Assembly (NCBI RefSeq): GCF_000225705.1
Contig: NZ_JH126467.1
Coordinates: 265,146-329,145, forward strand
Reading direction: 5' to 3'
Length of the DNA stretch: 64,000 nucleotides
Source: Collinsella tanakaei YIT 12063
GTDB taxonomy: Bacteria > Actinomycetota > Coriobacteriia > Coriobacteriales > Coriobacteriaceae
Shown here one piece after another: positions 37,952 through 48,722 of this stretch. Position 1 is the first letter of the stretch. Every line of letters begins with the position of its first letter. Under the pieces are notes generated by a model. It did not search any database and was not told the origin of the DNA. It saw only the letters and a program-made list of their open reading frames with translations. The position numbers were made by a program, and so were the translations under genes.

Positions 37952-38563
37952 ATGGCATCCCAGCATAAAGAACTGCAAAGCATTTGGACTCCGGCGAACA
38001 TCGTCACCTGCGTTCGCATCCTGTTTATCCCTGTGTATATGGCTTTTGCCCTCGGCGCCTTTACCATTGTGGGCATCTCCTATGAGTTCCAGGCGATCGC
38101 GGCATTCGTGATCTACATGGTGCTGAGCTTGACCGATAAGGTCGATGGGCATTTGGCTCGTTCTCGTGGCGAGATTACCGATTTTGGAAAATTCCTCGAT
38201 CCCATCGCCGATAAGCTGCTCGTCTTTTCCGCGCTTCTTATCTTTATCGAACAAGGGGTGCTCGCTTCCTGGATCGTATTCATCATCCTCTTCCGCGAAT
38301 TTCTGGTCAGCGCTCTTCGCATGGTCGCCAGCGCTAACGGCGAGGTGATCGCTGCAGATAAACTGGGCAAGTGGAAGACCGCGGTTACCATGGTTGCCAT
38401 CTGCGGATACTTGCTTGTTGATGTTATAGCGCTGTATTCCGTTGATGCAGCATCCATTCTGCTGACCGTATGCCATGTTTTCATGGCTGCCGCCGTTGTG
38501 CTCACGGTGGTTTCCGGTGCGCAGTACTTTTGGAACTGCCGCAAGATTGTGTTTAGGGTGTAG
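37952..38563 (+). CDS. pgsA: CDP-diacylglycerol--glycerol-3-phosphate 3-phosphatidyltransferase
   Basis: A 203-residue integral membrane enzyme that makes phosphatidylglycerol phosphate. The CDP-alcohol transferase motif is visible as DKVDGHLARSRGEITDFGKF continuing to LDPIAD, with the three Asp residues of the active site in place. Several membrane helices follow. It begins 2 bp after rimO, ends 3 bp before cinA, and belongs to the rimO-pgsA-cinA-recA order. A second, more distant family member lies at 57125-57886. Confidence 0.93.
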   Translation: MASQHKELQSIWTPANIVTCVRILFIPVYMAFALGAFTIVGISYEFQAIAAFVIYMVLSLTDKVDGHLARSRGEITDFGKFLDPIADKLLVFSALLIFIEQGVLASWIVFIILFREFLVSALRMVASANGEVIAADKLGKWKTAVTMVAICGYLLVDVIALYSVDAASILLTVCHVFMAAAVVLTVVSGAQYFWNCRKIVFRV

Positions 38564-41166: not shown

Positions 41167-41195
41167 TTGACATACGTATATTATCAACGTACGAT
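41167..41195 (+). promoter_or_regulatory. Promoter of the rny operon
   Basis: TTGACA (41167-41172), a 17-bp spacer and TACGAT (41190-41195) form a strong vegetative promoter, giving a leader of about 160 nt before rny. The rest of the 294-bp gap between recX and rny is AT-rich and shows no other clear element. Confidence 0.7.
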
Positions 41196-41359: not shown

Positions 41360-42910
41360 ATGGAGATTGGCATTGGCATTGTCTGCCTTCTTATAGGAGC
41401 AGGTATCGCCGTGCTCGTCATGCGCAACGCCAAGACCGGTAGCATTCGCGAGGCTGAAAATAAGATTCAGTCTGCACATGCAGAGGCTGAGCAGGTCATG
41501 GGTGATGCGCGTCGAGCGGCTGAGACGTTGAAGAAAGAGGCTCTTCTCGAGGCGAAGGAAGAGATCATCCAGAATAAGCAGGCAGCAGAGGCCGAGGAGA
41601 AGCTTCGCAAGAAGGAACTTCGCGTCCTTGAGAATCGCGTTATGCAGCGCGAGGAATCCCTGGATCGCCGCAACGAGGCACTCGATAAACGCGATCATCA
41701 GCTTTCCAGCCAGCAGGGCCAGATTGAGAAGAAGTCTCGTGAGTTGAACGAACTGTATGAGAAGCAGACCGATGAGCTTGAGCGAATCGCTGAACTCACT
41801 CGCGAGGACGCCCATAGGGAGCTTCTCGACAAGGTTCGCGGCGAGGTCACCCATGAGGCGGCAACGATCATCCGCGATAGCGAGCAGAAGGTTAAGGCCG
41901 AGTGCCATAAGACCGCTCAGGAGATCATCTCTCTTGCCATCCAGCGCTGCGCTGCCGACCATACCGCTGAGGTCACCGTCACCTCGGTGCATATTCCGTC
42001 CGATGATCTTAAGGGCAGGATCATCGGTCGCGAGGGCCGCAATATCCGCACCTTCGAGCAGGTTTCCGGTGTGAACCTGGTTATCGACGACACCCCTGAA
42101 ACGGTTGTTCTCTCCAGCTTCGATCCGGTTCGTCGTGAGACGGCTCGCGTCGCTCTCGAGAACCTTATCGCAGACGGTCGCATCCATCCTGCGCGCATCG
42201 AGGAGATGTATCAGAAAGCTGCCGATTTGGTTCAGCAGCGCGTTCGCGAAGCGGGCGAGCAGGCATGCTTCGATACCGGCATTCACGATCTTCATCCTGA
42301 GATTGTCAAGACCCTTGGCGCCCTTCGCTACCGTACCTCGTTTGGCCAGAACGTTCTTCAGCACTCTATCGAGGTGTCTGAGCTCTGCGCAATCATGGCT
42401 TCCGAGCTTGGTGTGGACGTTCGCGTGGCCAAGCGCGCAGGCCTGCTGCATGATCTCGGCAAGGCAATCGATCATGACGTAGAGGGTCCCCACGCCGTTA
42501 TCGGCGCCGATCTCGCTCGCCGCTACGGCGAGAAGCCCGTTATTGTCCACGCGATCGAGGCTCATCACGGCGATGTCGACCCCAACACCGTTCTTGCCGT
42601 GCTTGTTCAGGCTGCAGATGCAATTTCCGCGTCGCGTCCCGGTGCTCGCCGCGAGTCTGCCGAGAACTACATCAAGCGCCTTGAGAAGCTTGAGGAGATC
42701 GCCAACTCCCACGACGGCGTCGAGAGGACATATGCTATGCAGGCTGGTCGCGAGGTCCATGTCATGGTGCAGCCTGATAAGATTTCCGATGCTGAATCGA
42801 CCGTTCTGGCTCACAACATCGCTCAGCAGATCGAGGAAGAGATGGAGTATCCCGGCCAGGTTCGCGTCGTCGTGATCCGCGAGAGCCGCGCTGTGGATAT
42901 CGCTAAGTAA
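41360..42910 (+). CDS. rny: Ribonuclease Y
   Basis: A 516-residue membrane-anchored endoribonuclease that starts mRNA decay in many Gram-positive bacteria. An N-terminal membrane helix (residues 2-20, [19 protein letters not shown]) is followed by a long coiled coil rich in Glu and Arg (to about 190), a KH domain ([21 protein letters not shown]) and an HD domain with [12 protein letters not shown]. All parts are complete. It leads an operon with the GHKL ATPase, spoVS and miaB, beginning 1 bp before the ATPase gene. Confidence 0.97.
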
Positions 42911-42911
42911 C

Positions 42912-44000
42912 ATGAGCGACTCTAACGACCTCATCGCTTTCATCGCCTCCATGTCCGGAGAAGGCAATCTTCGTGTTGAAGAGAACCTAGGCGACGGCTA
43001 CGTAAAGCTTCGAGTTTCCGAAGCTGAGCGCCGTCAAGCTAAGCACGACATTCAAAGTGTCGAGGATATCGTTATCGAGATGCTCAGAAACGCTCGTGAC
43101 GCTGGAGCCGATCGGGTCTATATCGCAACATCGAAAGAGGAGGGTGTTCGCACTCTCCTCTTCCTTGACAACGGTTCCGGTGTCCCGATGGGCATGAGGG
43201 AGCGCATATTCGACGCCCGCGTCACCTCCAAGCTCGAGACCATGAAGATGGACAAGTGGGGCGTTCACGGTCGCGGTATGGCCCTGTTCTCCATTAAGCA
43301 GAATGCTCAATCCGCAGAGGTCCTCACGTCCGGTCCGGGTCTCGGATCCGTTTTTCGCGTTATAGTCGATTGCTCCTCGCTTAAAGAGCGAGTCGACCAA
43401 TCGACTTGGCCCCAGGCTGAAAAGAACGATGAGGGCGTCTTCGTTTGCACGCGCGGGCCTCACAATATCGTTCGTACCGCCTGCGAGTTCGCTTTGGAAG
43501 AGCTTCGTGGTTGCGATGTGTTCTTGGGAACGCCTACAGAGATCGCCTCTACGCTCTATAACCAGGCTCGCCGCGAGTTGGATGCTTCAAGCCTTTTATT
43601 TATGGACGATGAATCGGGCCTTCCGGTGATATCTCGCCTAGGCTTTGCCGCTGATGCGTCAGATTTCATCCAAATTGCTTCCACTTTGGGCATCGAGATT
43701 TCCGAGAGGACGGCTCATCGCATTCTTGCGGGGTCTATCGCACCGTTGAGAAGCGTATCCGCTCGTCTTTTAAGGGAGCGAACCACGCCTAGCGAGAGGT
43801 TGATGCGTCAAGTTGATCTTGAACGCGATCGCAGGGGGCTAAAGATTTCCAAGGATGATATCGCCAGCTTTTCTCGGGCCGTGGAGAAGGACTTTAACGA
43901 CCTTGCTTCACGGTATTACATCAACCTCTTGGGTGAACCAAAGGTGCGAGTCCTCAAGGATAAGATCACGGTTACCTTTGACCTTGGTAAAGAAGAGTAA
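42912..44000 (+). CDS. GHKL-type (MutL/Hsp90-like) ATP-binding protein of unknown role
   Basis: A 362-residue protein with a Bergerat ATP-binding fold. The N box EMLRNARDAGADRVYI (residues 56-71) matches the E..xxN..DA pattern of MutL, Hsp90 and type II topoisomerases. The G1 box DNGSGVP is at 86-92, and the G2 glycine-rich lid KWGVHGRGMALFSI at 115-128. The C-terminal 200 residues match no family I know and show no histidine-kinase dimerisation domain and no membrane helix, so it is not a sensor kinase. It starts 1 bp after rny and is followed by spoVS, taking the place that ymdB has in Bacillus. It may work with RNase Y or SpoVS; the exact role is unknown. Confidence 0.8.
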   Translation: MSDSNDLIAFIASMSGEGNLRVEENLGDGYVKLRVSEAERRQAKHDIQSVEDIVIEMLRNARDAGADRVYIATSKEEGVRTLLFLDNGSGVPMGMRERIFDARVTSKLETMKMDKWGVHGRGMALFSIKQNAQSAEVLTSGPGLGSVFRVIVDCSSLKERVDQSTWPQAEKNDEGVFVCTRGPHNIVRTACEFALEELRGCDVFLGTPTEIASTLYNQARRELDASSLLFMDDESGLPVISRLGFAADASDFIQIASTLGIEISERTAHRILAGSIAPLRSVSARLLRERTTPSERLMRQVDLERDRRGLKISKDDIASFSRAVEKDFNDLASRYYINLLGEPKVRVLKDKITVTFDLGKEE

Positions 44001-44078
44001 ACGGTTTTCCAGGTCGCTCGCTTGCGGTATACTTAAAATAATATGCATAAACGCACCACACACGCTGGAGAAACATAG

Positions 44079-44399
44079 ATGGAATTCCTCAAGGTATCGA
44101 GCAAGTCTTCACCTGCTTCCGTGGCGGGTGCCATCGCCGGTATGGTTAAAGACGGTGTGCCCGTCAATATGCAGTGCGTTGGCGCCGGTGCCGTCAACCA
44201 AGCGATCAAGGCGGTAGCCATAGCTCGCGGCTTCCTTATTCCTACGGGATTCGATATCTCCTGCGCCCCCATCTTCTCCGACATTCTCATTAACGGTGAA
44301 TCGCGCACGGCTATCAGGCTTTCTGTGTACGTTCACCATCTCTCTATTCAAAGCTCGGACGCTGCCGAGCTGCTTAAAGATTTTCAAGAGGTCTGCTAA
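44079..44399 (+). CDS. spoVS: SpoVS family protein
   Basis: A 106-residue protein of the SpoVS (Alba-like) family, which in Bacillus affects septation and spore coat assembly and is likely to bind nucleic acid. The start MEFLKVSSKSSPASVAGAIAG and the core ANQCVGAGAVNQAIKAVAIARGF-like segment (QCVGAGAVNQAIKAVAIARG) are highly conserved. The C-terminal half is longer and more variable than in the 86-residue Bacillus protein. Coriobacteriia do not sporulate, so the function must be a general one. It lies 78 bp after the ATPase gene and 2 bp before miaB. Confidence 0.92.
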   Translation: MEFLKVSSKSSPASVAGAIAGMVKDGVPVNMQCVGAGAVNQAIKAVAIARGFLIPTGFDISCAPIFSDILINGESRTAIRLSVYVHHLSIQSSDAAELLKDFQEVC

Positions 44400-44401
44400 G
44401 A

Positions 44402-45760
44402 ATGAACTCCTCTATCCTTTCAGGTAAAACCTATTTCATCCGTACGTTCGGTTGCCAGATGAACCTTCATGATTCCGAGCGTGTGAGCGGCTTGCTCGAC
44501 TCCCTTGGGTGCTTGGAGGTCGGCGAGCCCTCGGATGCCGATATCGTTATCTTTATGACGTGCTGCGTTCGCGAGGCGGCTGATACACGTTTGTACGGAC
44601 AGTGCTCCTCCTGTAAGAGCCTGCCTAAGTCTCCTAGCGGTCGCCGCGTTATCGCAGTTGGCGGCTGCATCGCTCAGCGTGATGGCGAGGGACTTCTCAC
44701 CAACCTCGACAACGTTGACGTTATCTTTGGCACCCATTCCATCGCTCACGTGGGCGAGCTTATCGCCCAGGCCTTCGAAGATGGCGACCATCACGTTAGG
44801 TGCGAGGAGATCGAAGATAAGGGGGCCACAAGCATGCCGTGGCATCGCGCCACCACGTTCCATTCTTGGGTCCCCATCATGACTGGTTGCAATAATTTCT
44901 GTAGCTACTGTATCGTTCCTTATGTTCGCGGCCGCGAAAAGAGCCGTCCGTTTGAGCAGATCGTTGACGAGGTCGCCGGACTTGTGCGCTCCGACGTTCG
45001 TGAAATCACGCTGCTCGGCCAAAACGTTAATTCCTATGGACGAGACATTTTTGGCAAGCCGCGCTTTGCCGACCTGCTCCGTGCAGTGGGAGAGACCGGC
45101 ATTGAGCGTATACGCTTTACATCCTCTCATCCTAAAGATCTCTTGCCTGAGACCATTAATGCGATGGCCGATGTTCCCGCCGTTATGCCTCACCTTCATC
45201 TTGCGGTTCAGTCCGGTTCCACCCGTGTGCTTAAAGAGATGAATAGGCGCTATACGCGTGAGCAGTACATCGATCTTGTTCGCAGCATCCGTGAAAAGAT
45301 ACCTGGCATAGCACTGACCACCGATATTATCGTCGGCTTCCCTGGTGAAACTGAAGAGGACTTTTTGCAGACCCTTTCACTTGCTGAAGAGGTTCGCTAC
45401 GCCCAGGCCTTTACGTTCATCTATTCTAAGCGCGAGGGCACGCCCGCTGCAATGATCGATGATCCCACGCCGCATGATGTCATTCTCGACCGTTTCAACC
45501 GTTTGGTCTCCGTTATCGAGACCACGGCACATGAATTCAACCAAGGGCAGCTGCATACCACGGTTCCTGCGCTCATCGAGGGCACGTCCAAGAAGGATGA
45601 TTGCATGCTCCAAGGTAAAAGCCCTTGGAATCAAACCGTTCATGCTCCACTGCCCGAAGGCGCCGACATCGATTCCTACATCGGTAAGATCGTCGATGTC
45701 GATGTTGATGTTGCTAAAACCTGGTATCTTTCCGGCTCCTTGGTTGGCGGGCCTCGATGA
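44402..45760 (+). CDS. miaB: tRNA-2-methylthio-N6-dimethylallyladenosine synthase
   Basis: A 452-residue radical SAM methylthiotransferase that makes ms2i6A37 in tRNA. The N-terminal part begins YFIRTFGCQMNLHDSERV, the MiaB hallmark; CCVREAAD follows; the radical SAM motif CNNFCSYCIVPYVRGREKSR is at about residue 162; a TRAM domain ends the protein. It overlaps miaA by 4 bp, so the isopentenylation and methylthiolation enzymes are made together. Three different methylthiotransferases (MtaB, RimO, MiaB) lie in this window. Confidence 0.96.
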   Translation: MNSSILSGKTYFIRTFGCQMNLHDSERVSGLLDSLGCLEVGEPSDADIVIFMTCCVREAADTRLYGQCSSCKSLPKSPSGRRVIAVGGCIAQRDGEGLLTNLDNVDVIFGTHSIAHVGELIAQAFEDGDHHVRCEEIEDKGATSMPWHRATTFHSWVPIMTGCNNFCSYCIVPYVRGREKSRPFEQIVDEVAGLVRSDVREITLLGQNVNSYGRDIFGKPRFADLLRAVGETGIERIRFTSSHPKDLLPETINAMADVPAVMPHLHLAVQSGSTRVLKEMNRRYTREQYIDLVRSIREKIPGIALTTDIIVGFPGETEEDFLQTLSLAEEVRYAQAFTFIYSKREGTPAAMIDDPTPHDVILDRFNRLVSVIETTAHEFNQGQLHTTVPALIEGTSKKDDCMLQGKSPWNQTVHAPLPEGADIDSYIGKIVDVDVDVAKTWYLSGSLVGGPR

Positions 45761-46677
45761 CAATCCCCGTTATCTCTATTACGGGTCCCACTGCGTCCGG
45801 TAAGAGTTCTCTTGCCGATGAGGTCGCCTCTCGACTGCATACAGATGTCATCTCTGCTGATGCTATGCAGGTCTATGTTGGCATGGATATCGGTACTGCA
45901 AAAACACCAGAGCCAGAGCGTAGGGTACCGCTCCGTCTCGTGGATATCGTTTCTCCTTCAGAGAGCTATTCTGCAGCCCTGTATCAGCATGATGCACGGG
46001 CGATAATTGACTCGCTCCTTTCTGCAGGCAAGCCGGCCATTCTCTGCGGTGGCACTGGTTTGTACCTTCGTGCTGCTTTGGACGAAATGGAATTTCCGAA
46101 AGGCGAGGTTGAGGGCGAGCGCCGCTCGCGGTATCAGCATATAGCTGAGGAGCTTGGCCCGGAAGGGCTTCACGCCCTGCTTCGTGAAAAGGATCCTGCT
46201 AGCGCCGATCAGATTCATCCCAATAATGTTCGACGGGTTGTCCGGGCGCTCGAAATGATCGATGAGGGTATTAGCTACGCCGATCAAAAGGCCGGATTCT
46301 CCACGCCCCGCGCTCACTATGATTACGTTAGCTTCGCTCTCACTATGGATAGAGATCGTCTGTATAAGAGAATCGATGATCGCGTTGATATCATGATGCA
46401 TCAGGGCCTTCTTGATGAGGTAAAAGGTCTCGTCGCTTCTGGTGCCGCTGATGCGATCACAAGCAGGCAGGCCATTGGCTATAAGGAGATCATCGATTAT
46501 CTCGAGGGGACCTGCTCGCTTGCAGATGCGGTCTCTTTAATCAAGCAGAGGTCAAGGCGATATGCAAAAAGGCAGCTGTCTTGGTGCAGGAAGGATGATA
46601 GGACCATTTGGTTGGATATGGACCAGCTGTCAACCAATCAAGCTGCTGATTTCATAATGGAGAAAACGGGGTACTAA
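45757..46677 (+). CDS. miaA: tRNA dimethylallyltransferase
   Basis: A 306-residue enzyme that adds the dimethylallyl group to A37 of tRNAs reading UNN codons. The P-loop ITGPTASGKSSLADEVA is at the N-terminus, followed by SADAMQVYVGMDIGTAK and CGGTGLYLRAAL. The C-terminal part has QAIGYKEIIDYLEG. It starts inside miaB and ends directly at the hflX start codon. From here to about 58 kb the GC content is visibly lower than in the pyr and era regions. Confidence 0.95.
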   Translation: MTIPVISITGPTASGKSSLADEVASRLHTDVISADAMQVYVGMDIGTAKTPEPERRVPLRLVDIVSPSESYSAALYQHDARAIIDSLLSAGKPAILCGGTGLYLRAALDEMEFPKGEVEGERRSRYQHIAEELGPEGLHALLREKDPASADQIHPNNVRRVVRALEMIDEGISYADQKAGFSTPRAHYDYVSFALTMDRDRLYKRIDDRVDIMMHQGLLDEVKGLVASGAADAITSRQAIGYKEIIDYLEGTCSLADAVSLIKQRSRRYAKRQLSWCRKDDRTIWLDMDQLSTNQAADFIMEKTGY

Positions 46678-47967
46678 ATGGCAAAACCGGGCTTCATCTC
46701 TACGACTCCCGTCCCGGAGCGAGCCCTTCTCGTTGGCGTAGACTGGAGGGTCAACTCATGTCCTATCGATCGGTCTCTTGATGAGCTCGAGCGCCTTGCT
46801 CATACAGCAGGTGCTGAAGCTGTTGCAAGACTTACGCAGCGACTAGACAAGCCAATCCCCAAGTCATTTATTGGGTCTGGCAAGGTTGAGGAACTTGTTC
46901 GAATGGTTCACAGCCTTGATATAGATGTCGTCATCTTCGACGATGAACTTTCGCCATCTCAACAGTCTTACCTTGAAAAAGCCGTAGGCGAACCAGTGAA
47001 GATTATCGATCGCACCGCATTGATTCTCGATATATTCGGTTTACATGCGAAGACTCGCGAGGGTCGCCTTCAAGTTCAGCTTGCCCAGCTTCAATACCTT
47101 CTTCCAAGGCTTCGCGGTATGTGGAGCCATCTTGCAAAAGAGCAGACTCGTGGTGGAATCGGAAGTCGCTTCGGCCAGGGCGAAAGTCAGCTTGAAGTGG
47201 ACAGGCGCTTGATCCGCAATAAAATCTCCGCGCTTCGAAAGCAATTAAGGCTCGTCGAGAAACGAAGGGGAGTGCAGTCTAAGGACCGACTGGAATCAAG
47301 TGCTTTCAGAGTAGCCCTAGCAGGTTATACCAATGCTGGAAAGTCGACTCTACTCAACCGCCTTACGGGCGCCGATGTTTTCACCCAGGATAAGCTGTTT
47401 GCAACCCTTGATCCTACAACTCGAGCGTATGCCCTTCCGGGCGGCAGGTTAATTACCGTCACCGATACGGTCGGTTTCATCCAGAAGCTTCCGCATGGGT
47501 TGGTTGAGGCTTTCAAATCGACGCTCTCAGAGGTTCTTAACGCCGATCTCATTCTCAAGGTTGTAGATATTTCAGATGATGACTGGATTCGTCAAATGGA
47601 TGCAGTCGAGTCCGTTCTTTCTGAAATCGGTGCGGGCGATAAGTTATCTGTTACGGTCTTCAATAAAGTTGATCTTCTTGATCCCATTGAGCTTGGCATT
47701 CTCAAGTCCCGCTATTCCGATAGCATCTTTTTTTCCGCGCTTACTGGCGAGGGGATTGATTCGCTTACCTCTCGAATTGCCAACGAGGCATCCGCAAGTG
47801 ACACCGTGCTCAGCGCCACGATTCCGTACAAGGAAGCTGCGCTGATTTCGTTGATTCGCGAGCAAGGTCAAGTTGTTCATGAGGAATTTCTAGGCGAGGG
47901 CGTGCGGCTGATTGCTCGCGTTCCCAGCCGTATCGCTCCTCGGATCGAACGCTATATTACCGAATAG
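46678..47967 (+). CDS. hflX: GTPase HflX
   Basis: A 429-residue GTPase that splits stalled or heat-damaged ribosomes. The N-terminal domain contains DDELSPSQQSYLEK and the RTALILDIFGLHAKTREGRLQV block that defines HflX. The GTPase domain has GYTNAGKSTLLN, DTVGFIQKLPHGLVEAFKST and FNKVDL. It directly follows miaA, and miaA-hflX is a common pair (in Bacillus and E. coli with hfq between). It converges with a minus-strand gene 14 bp away, with no clear terminator. Confidence 0.96.
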   Translation: MAKPGFISTTPVPERALLVGVDWRVNSCPIDRSLDELERLAHTAGAEAVARLTQRLDKPIPKSFIGSGKVEELVRMVHSLDIDVVIFDDELSPSQQSYLEKAVGEPVKIIDRTALILDIFGLHAKTREGRLQVQLAQLQYLLPRLRGMWSHLAKEQTRGGIGSRFGQGESQLEVDRRLIRNKISALRKQLRLVEKRRGVQSKDRLESSAFRVALAGYTNAGKSTLLNRLTGADVFTQDKLFATLDPTTRAYALPGGRLITVTDTVGFIQKLPHGLVEAFKSTLSEVLNADLILKVVDISDDDWIRQMDAVESVLSEIGAGDKLSVTVFNKVDLLDPIELGILKSRYSDSIFFSALTGEGIDSLTSRIANEASASDTVLSATIPYKEAALISLIREQGQVVHEEFLGEGVRLIARVPSRIAPRIERYITE

Positions 47968-47981
47968 CCCCTGCTATCTCA

Positions 47982-48722
47982 CTAACCCAGTGTAGCTGTG
48001 AGCAAGGCTAGGACGATGGGCTGGTGGAGTAAGTAGACCAATAGGCTATGGCGTCCAATAATCGTTAACAGGTGGCAGTAATCCCTCTTCATCCAACTTG
48101 GATATATATAAGATTTCACGTCTCTAGACAGGTATGCGATCGCTGAAAACACGCCTGCGGCATAAAGGAAGAAGTAGGGGATTGGGGGATAGTAATCTCC
48201 GGAAGCAAATCCCGGTCCCGGAAAGCCCAGCCACGACAGCCCTGCAAACATATAGCTACCCCTGGGAACTCCATAGGTGATCGCGAATAATGACATGCAG
48301 ATTGTTATGCCTATTAAAGGGTTGAGCCTCTTGAAGAATCTCGCACCCGCTCCATAGGCTAAGGTACAAAAAGCCATGCAATAGAGAATTCCGAAGGATA
48401 CGGGTGTGTCAACACTTGCGACAGATGTAACGAGAAACACCACCAATGCGGCGATGGCATACATCGCACCCCTTTTAAGATTGTTCCGCGAGTGTTGGGT
48501 CATCCAGCCTGCAAGTATAAGGAATGTCCAGCTAATCGCAGCTCTCCAAATATCTTGAAATATGCTAGATGTAAACCAAGGCAAATCAATCCCATATAGA
48601 TATGCCAAGTCGTATGTGGTATGGAAAGCGACCATGGAGATTATGGTCAGCCCGCGAATCGTATCGAAAAAAACGATTCTTTCCGCGGGCTTTTGCTGGT
48701 CGATGTCAGACTCGGTATTCAT
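47982..48722 (-). CDS. DUF1624 (heparan acetyltransferase-like) membrane protein
   Basis: A 246-residue protein with about seven hydrophobic helices. The N-terminus FFDTIRGLTIISMVAFHTTYDLAYL is the DUF1624 signature, related to the heparan-alpha-glucosaminide acetyltransferase catalytic domain and to acyltransferase-3 proteins; the end HSLLVYLLHQP also matches. It may acylate a cell-surface sugar, but the substrate is unknown. Its ATG directly follows the lexA stop codon, so it is likely co-transcribed with lexA and under LexA control. This gene order is the odd point. Confidence 0.8.
   Translation of the reverse strand: MNTESDIDQQKPAERIVFFDTIRGLTIISMVAFHTTYDLAYLYGIDLPWFTSSIFQDIWRAAISWTFLILAGWMTQHSRNNLKRGAMYAIAALVVFLVTSVASVDTPVSFGILYCMAFCTLAYGAGARFFKRLNPLIGITICMSLFAITYGVPRGSYMFAGLSWLGFPGPGFASGDYYPPIPYFFLYAAGVFSAIAYLSRDVKSYIYPSWMKRDYCHLLTIIGRHSLLVYLLHQPIVLALLTATLG

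Follow-up and report, generated by a model that had tools for sequence, protein, structure and literature searches.

A conserved, apparently undescribed GHKL ATPase family closely linked to the RNase Y gene in Collinsella and other Actinomycetota

Introduction

RNase Y initiates mRNA decay in many bacteria, and its regulators are known mainly from Bacillota, most of the papers found dealing with Bacillus and Staphylococcus; in Bacillus its gene stands first in the order rny-ymdB-spoVS. In a stretch of 64,000 nucleotides from Collinsella tanakaei YIT 12063 (contig NZ_JH126467.1, positions 265,146 to 329,145), which is called here the window, with positions counted from its first letter, the gene that follows rny encodes a protein with the ATP-binding boxes of the GHKL superfamily. 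GHKL ATPases are familiar chiefly as DNA-repair proteins, topoisomerases, chaperones and kinases. Which function, then, does such a protein serve beside RNase Y, and does it belong to RNase Y at all?

Gene and operon context

The genes and promoter-like matches around the GHKL gene are the following:

41167..41195, + strand: promoter-like match TTGACA-17-TACGAT upstream of rny, weak
41360..42910, + strand: rny, RNase Y, 516 aa (ORF reading; Pfam and NCBIfam matches)
42912..44000, + strand: GHKL ATPase family protein, 362 aa (ORF reading, Pfam, alignment, AlphaFold model)
44006..44033, + strand: promoter-like match TTTCCA-16-TATACT upstream of spoVS, number of such matches not above chance
44079..44399, + strand: spoVS, 106 aa, a common but optional neighbour (ORF and Pfam)
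44402..45760, + strand: miaB, neighbour in the conserved block (ORF; C. aerofaciens record; locus survey)
45757..46677, + strand: miaA, neighbour in the conserved block (same evidence)
46678..47967, + strand: hflX, neighbour in the conserved block (same evidence)

The GHKL gene starts with ATG and is separated by a single base (42911) from the TAA stop codon of rny (42908-42910). The assignments of its two immediate neighbours are secure, RNase Y by NCBIfam (TIGR03319, with 714 bits where 454 is the cut-off) and SpoVS by Pfam (PF04232, 2.7e-34). A preliminary description of this DNA had reported a protein with GHKL boxes 1 bp past RNase Y, followed by spoVS, miaB, miaA and hflX, and this gene order was confirmed by the open reading frames together with the Pfam and NCBIfam matches. 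The same order, with miaB, miaA and hflX downstream, is annotated in a record of Collinsella aerofaciens, where a close relative of the GHKL protein is named only “ATP-binding protein”. Promoter-like matches in the region are at chance level (two, against a mean of 2.3 in shuffled sequence), and Rfam matched no RNA element between positions 38500 and 49600 of the window. Beyond hflX and on the opposite strand, a membrane protein is encoded between hflX and lexA (47982-48722, - strand); the C. aerofaciens record annotates it as a heparan-alpha-glucosaminide N-acetyltransferase.

The ATP-binding domain

The GHKL domain spans residues 46-153, which are matched by PF13589 (HATPase_c_3, 1.2e-7) and PF02518 (HATPase_c, 4.5e-7), both above their gathering cut-offs; a Pfam search of the full 362-aa protein returned nothing besides HATPase families at E<=1. 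The asparagine of the N box, the DxGxG of G1, the glycines of G2 and, in the structure model, the Bergerat fold are all present, which are the features of the GHKL superfamily. Three boxes mark the ATP site, and their conservation is given for an alignment of 89 rows, made up of 68 rows (five genomes being present twice) and 21 of a group labelled f35, the most divergent in the family:

43062..43109, + strand: N box, residues 51-66 (EDIVIEMLRNARDAGA; E56, N60), with N60 in 89/89 rows and E56 in 88/89
43167..43181, + strand: G1 box, residues 86-90 (DNGSG), with D86 and G90 in 89/89 rows
43224..43286, + strand: TSK and G2 box, residues 105-125 (TSKLETMKMDKWGVHGRGMAL), MutL-like, with T105 and G122 in 89/89 rows

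Besides N60, D86, G90, T105 and G122, the unvarying positions of this alignment include E159, Q163, N185 and S264, while E56, R266 and R270 each vary once. Among 40 members from the class of the window, Coriobacteriia, the N box, the G1 box and the TSK/G2 region (W-G-x-H-G-R-G-M-A-L) are invariant or nearly so, and the same holds for D162-Q163, N185, R188, S264, R266 and R270. Group f35 retains the main ATP-site residues and an S-x-R-x-x-x-R motif of the C-terminal part, and departs from the other members in lacking Q42, in having A or S in place of R121 and L in place of D162, and in mostly replacing K107 by R and R188 by A. Judged from its sequence, the ATP site is intact and of the MutL type.

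The partial NCBIfam matches all fall in the GHKL part and are to MutL (TIGR00585), a sacsin-like ATP-binding domain and histidine kinases. TIGR00585 matches residues 47-130 only (1.5e-7, 30.7 bits against a cut-off of 180), and over its full length the protein fails the curated MutL model. In a PDB sequence search MutL ranks first, and it is also the top match of the family profile against the PDB (4.1e-8). The AlphaFold model of the whole protein, with a pLDDT of 87, has its best match in the N-terminal domain of MutL (Z 12.6, rmsd 4.1, 159 residues aligned), within 1 of which lies topoisomerase VI (Z 12.2), with ParE/GyrB behind (11.1), and the matches to these three kinds of protein together cover Z 10-12.6; Foldseek alone puts histidine-kinase ATPase domains first, and the MutL-type reading therefore relies on the Z-score structure comparison and on sequence. 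The earlier assignment of the boxes to the MutL/Hsp90/topoisomerase fold is upheld in that NCBIfam, the Z-score comparison and the PDB profile search place the domain nearer to MutL and the topoisomerases, with histidine kinases further off, against the ranking of Foldseek alone. With the N-terminal ATPase of MutL the protein shares the GHKL fold, the E-x-x-x-N arrangement of the N box, DxGxG, TSK and the A-L of the G2 region; it differs in scoring far under the model cut-offs, in that neither an S5 transducer nor the C-terminal domain of MutL is recognised in it, and in possessing another C-terminal region and another genomic partner.

A kinase is the other activity that a GHKL domain could suggest. 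The DHp/HisKA dimerisation domain with a phospho-accepting His, which in a histidine kinase precedes the ATPase domain, was not found, no HisKA family being matched in Pfam at E<=1 and only about 45 residues, with one short helix in the model, preceding the Pfam match. A serine/threonine kinase, acting in the manner of SpoIIAB/RsbW or CapK and phosphorylating a neighbour, for instance RNase Y or SpoVS, would agree with the Foldseek ranking and has a precedent in GHKL kinases fused to HTH and nucleic-acid-sensing modules, of which CapK is one (PMC13373217). CapK and VapK are HTH-STAS-GHKL kinases, with the HTH and STAS domains of CapK at the N-terminus and a STAS-wHTH protein as substrate (PMC13373217); the protein described here shares with them the GHKL domain, possibly combined with an HTH, but its GHKL domain is N-terminal and Pfam finds no STAS. 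Moreover, the best scores are with MutL-type models (PF13589, TIGR00585 and, as PDB profile, MutL), the TSK and G2 segments are MutL-like, and the genes adjoining the GHKL gene include no STAS-domain partner. The protein is likely a non-kinase, and phosphorylation of a neighbour is an improbable function for it.

The C-terminal region

The rest of the protein follows the GHKL domain and can be divided as below:

43389..43997, + strand: C-terminal region, residues 160-362, with no recognised family or convincing fold match (Pfam, fold searches)
43656..43733, + strand: helix-turn-helix-like segment, residues 249-274, with S264, R266 and R270 (weak fold matches; conservation)
43851..43991, + strand: C-terminal helix and strands, residues 314-360 (secondary structure of the models)

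The C-terminal 203 residues of the window protein, searched alone, matched no Pfam family at E<=1, and the corresponding part of 62 homologues gave scattered matches, with no family in more than 3 of the 62 and the strongest (bPH_4, 2.7e-4) in one. Modelled alone, the region reaches a pLDDT of 90; Foldseek searches with this model gave a best E of 0.73 in the PDB and 0.35 among viral models, which does not imply a novel fold. Thus, the statement that the last 200 or so residues resemble nothing known still stands, Pfam, PDB and viral-model searches having given nothing convincing. The fold searches with the C-terminal model did not recognise an S5 transducer either, though an unmatched fold is no proof of its absence.

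In the VIA fold list the C-terminal model has Z values of 2-3.9, and DNA-binding helix-turn-helix domains, among them those of RpoN (the best, Z 3.9), VanR, ArgR and Fur, take up many of the top places, aligned with residues 202-278 and intermixed with other folds such as calmodulin; Z values below 4 are in the range typical of common arrangements. The S-x-R-x-x-x-R motif within this stretch is near-invariant (S264 in 89/89 rows, R266 and R270 each in 88/89). The weak fold matches hint at a putative helix-turn-helix in the C-terminal part. A sigma-54-like HTH, suggested by the best fold match, was rejected on a profile comparison with E. coli RpoN, which was empty, as were the controls (the LexA of the window and two unrelated E. 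coli proteins).

From the same matches and the same conserved serine and arginines, the protein might be read as an ATP-responsive transcription regulator, in which the C-terminal HTH would bind DNA, the GHKL domain would sense ATP or a partner, and the position beside rny would reflect autoregulation of the operon. This is unlikely: the Z values are those of common arrangements, calmodulin stands in the same list, and no Pfam HTH was found above noise in the C-terminal part of the homologues (HTH_31 in 2/62, best E 0.39).

Distribution of the family

In a first sample of relatives the family was found in 56/58 genomes and in 47/48 of those of good quality, the exception (G044) being 90% complete and in 290 contigs. 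A sample of the class gave 118/119 genomes and 68/68 genera, with 106/106 at good quality (completeness of 90% or more, contamination of 5% or less). Each genome carries a single strong match, barring genes split across contigs, and additional matches are weak and generic. In a sample of 246 genomes from the phylum, 160 match the family profile at E<=0.001; 97 of these, with a best E below 1e-27, were counted as family, and 63 (best E from 6.9e-9 upwards) were left out as generic GHKL proteins. Outside the class, members occur in 15 further GTDB families of this sample, including the divergent group f28 and the most divergent f35, whose proteins are mostly 300-324 residues long as read and score between 1e-27 and 1e-39. 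The nearest named record, among the best 80 of 513 confirmed relatives, is from Collinsella sp. and is 79% identical; by their record names these best 80 are all from Coriobacteriia. The family is conserved across Collinsella, its relatives and other Actinomycetota.

A mobile or defence origin was ruled against. Phages gave no match to the family, 21 pattern matches on viral contigs gave no confirmed member, and the one match on a plasmid is a Collinsella record on a 900-kb replicon; PADLOC returned just a weak GHKL match to TmtA (0.0013) and PHROGs only weak GHKL matches (best 8.3e-4). MORC and paraMORC proteins share with the family a GHKL ATPase followed by an extra C-terminal domain, but they carry S5 and occur sporadically in restriction-modification operons (PMC2292703), whereas the present family is lineage-wide, in a single strong copy and linked to rny.

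Linkage with RNase Y

The preliminary description had made a conserved link with rny or spoVS one test of its proposal, and for RNase Y the neighbours of the homologues supplied it. With rny called by TIGR03319 at E<=1e-40, the gene is found in 177 of the 246 genomes of the phylum sample: 96 have the family and rny, one the family alone, 81 rny alone and 68 neither. A Fisher test on these four counts takes no account of how the genomes are related, and its value is not to be read literally. The single genome with the family and no detected rny (G384) is 79% complete and its GHKL gene starts at a contig end. The two genes adjoin on the same strand in 89/89 genomes with printed rny coordinates, with gaps of -4 to 548 bases, and reading the DNA of group f35, where adjacency holds in 21/21, added six genomes to the 89; adjacency is therefore found in 95/97, the two others being unreadable (G304, in which rny is in two pieces, and G384). 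At the level of loci, the GHKL gene directly neighbours rny in the same orientation in 60/60 distinct loci, and further counts gave 70/70 (one genome twice) and 109/109 (five genomes twice). The gap exceeds 300 bases in 4/60 loci, where it contains open frames of 63-180 aa.

Other associations among the 60 loci are looser: spoVS is present in 42 of the 53 that extend 3 kb or more downstream, recA in 43 of the 50 that extend 5.5 kb or more upstream, and miaB in 47 of the 50 that reach 5.5 kb or more downstream. The block recA-recX-rny-...-miaB-miaA-hflX is nevertheless conserved as a whole, and the linkage is therefore in part general synteny. Protein distances give no sign that RNase Y and the GHKL protein covary specifically: over 32 loci and given recA, miaB and miaA, their partial correlation is 0.056, which is less than in any of the other five pairs formed without recA (0.16 to 0.43). 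In 20 of the 81 rny genomes lacking the family, the rny neighbourhoods were searched for divergent copies with hmmsearch, filters off, and none was found in 20/20 (best E 0.68). Since 81/177 rny genomes are without the family and the 20 neighbourhoods searched hold no divergent copy, RNase Y can work without it.

These data bear on two further explanations. The protein could be a housekeeping protein unrelated to RNase Y, kept beside rny by operon inertia, as the synteny of the whole block, the lack of rate covariation with rny and the absence of the family from 81/177 rny genomes would allow; there is little probability in this, given that adjacency to rny has no exception where it is readable while other neighbours come and go, and that only 1/97 genomes has the family without a detected rny. 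The protein could also descend from MutL and act in a DNA transaction such as repair or recombination, having simply remained where an ancestral recA...mutL-miaA-hflX neighbourhood stood. The mutL gene of Bacillus and E. coli is found close to miaA/hflX, recA-recX stand upstream of rny in the present block, and MutL is the closest named relative; a MutL-descended repair protein deserves weighing as a rival, because within the phylum sample MutL itself (TIGR00585, E<=1e-25) is confined to group f35, whose genomes have both proteins (21/21), apart from one fragment in G304. The co-occurrence of a true MutL and the GHKL family protein in f35 speaks against this descent of function, as do the score far below the MutL models and a proximity to recA that is looser than the adjacency to rny, and a repair role is unlikely.

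Two details of the locus vary among lineages. In group f28 the GHKL frame and the end of rny share several bases (in locus L195, rny covers 320-1873 and the GHKL gene, from its first possible start, 1863-2960), and gaps of -4 are among those measured between the two genes; the overlap in f28 suggests translational coupling. Elsewhere in the class and phylum, though not in the lineage of the window, a gene for a PHP-domain protein of about 280 aa follows rny, the GHKL gene or spoVS, mostly just before miaB (L052:8137-8982, and similarly in L185, L197, L202, L207 and L208); this protein may be a phosphatase of nucleotides or RNA ends that is associated with the block.

SpoVS, YmdB and the proteins of the Y-complex

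SpoVS accompanies the family in 69/97 genomes and is missing in 28/97 (all 21 of group f35 and seven others), while SpoVS also occurs in ten genomes of the phylum sample that lack the family; a partnership with SpoVS is weakened by both counts, and the idea of SpoVS as a fixed partner is not supported in view of the first, which likewise counts against SpoVS as the substrate of a kinase. Two SpoVS genes per genome are found in G229 and G366, both of group f55, and in G304; in G229 one adjoins the GHKL gene and the other is on another contig, and in G366 neither rny nor a family-level GHKL match accompanies the two, possibly owing to an assembly gap.

YmdB shares with the GHKL protein the position after rny, as in one Clostridia record where a gene of the YmdB family (TIGR00282) follows rny, but it is a metallophosphoesterase and unrelated; the window protein does not match TIGR00282 in NCBIfam. 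YmdB is found in 0/59 class genomes and in 52/246 genomes of the phylum, 27 of which also carry the GHKL family (15 of f28 and 12 of f35); in 27/27 the YmdB gene stands either on a different contig or at a distance above 0.8 Mb. As the two coexist, unlinked, in 27/97 family genomes, the GHKL protein is no stand-in for YmdB, and a strict displacement was rejected despite the absence of YmdB from the class sample; the phrase “in the place of ymdB” used for this gene therefore does not hold in the sense of replacement. Two of the f28 matches to the YmdB family (G165:C71:10775-11560 and G228:C53:57552-58343) contain one in-frame TGA each, which may reflect a pseudogene, a sequencing error or an artefact of the start region.

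In Bacillus, RicT stably complexes RNase Y only when RicA and RicF are present (PMC10470536). The family of RicA and RicF (Com_YlbF, YlbF/YmcA) is found in 0/59 class genomes and in 3/246 of the phylum (G188, G301 and G380), whereas PSP1, the domain of RicT (YaaT), is found in 58/59 class genomes; RicT must therefore work in the class without its Bacillus partners. RNase Y and a RicT-type protein thus occur in the class without the two proteins that join them in Bacillus, and this recommends the GHKL protein as a candidate helper. The GHKL protein itself has no Com_YlbF or PSP1 domain, its Pfam matches at E<=1 being to HATPase families. Com_YlbF is also missing in 80/81 rny genomes without the family (the exception is G380), and the reading of the protein as a substitute for YlbF/YmcA is weakened by this absence from nearly the whole phylum sample.

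Proposed function

The link of the GHKL protein to RNase Y is genomic, and from it we infer the mechanism that follows. The protein is proposed to be an ATP-switched accessory factor dedicated to RNase Y, with a probability of about one half; this is based on the linkage to rny, exceptionless where readable, on the intact ATP site, and on the retention of ATP-site residues and of the C-terminal motif. The protein would be made together with RNase Y, as the 1-base gap in the window and the overlapping frames in f28 suggest, and its C-terminal part would bind nucleic acid or RNase Y. ATP drives dimer closure in MutL and gyrase B; by a similar closure, ATP binding and hydrolysis may switch the GHKL protein between states in which RNase Y could be brought to its substrates, licensed to act on them or held back. 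Its role would be like that of the specificity factors of RNase Y in Bacillus, played by an unrelated protein: with RicA/RicF/RicT (YmcA/YlbF/YaaT) of the Y-complex (PMC10470536), it would share the proposed role only, that of an accessory factor deciding what RNase Y does, the proteins themselves being unrelated.

A more specific form of the accessory-factor proposal is tentative, and rather doubtful at present: the protein might be a dimeric, ATP-gated clamp and a GHKL-based component of an RNA degradosome, whose nucleotide state would load RNase Y onto selected RNAs or keep it away from them, as an independent answer to the Y-complex of Bacillus common to the class of the window and other deep lineages of Actinomycetota.

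Significance

The family is real, conserved and apparently undescribed, and its genomic tie to RNase Y is strong. The suggestion that this gene was a candidate for an undescribed system has so far been sustained, as a literature search, whose coverage left out most subscription journals and preprints, found no description of the protein. The gene names a concrete candidate partner of RNase Y in gut bacteria such as Collinsella and Olsenella, and with this family the control of RNase Y becomes directly testable where YlbF, YmcA and YmdB are missing. If the proposed function is true, RNA decay would join the roles of GHKL ATPases.
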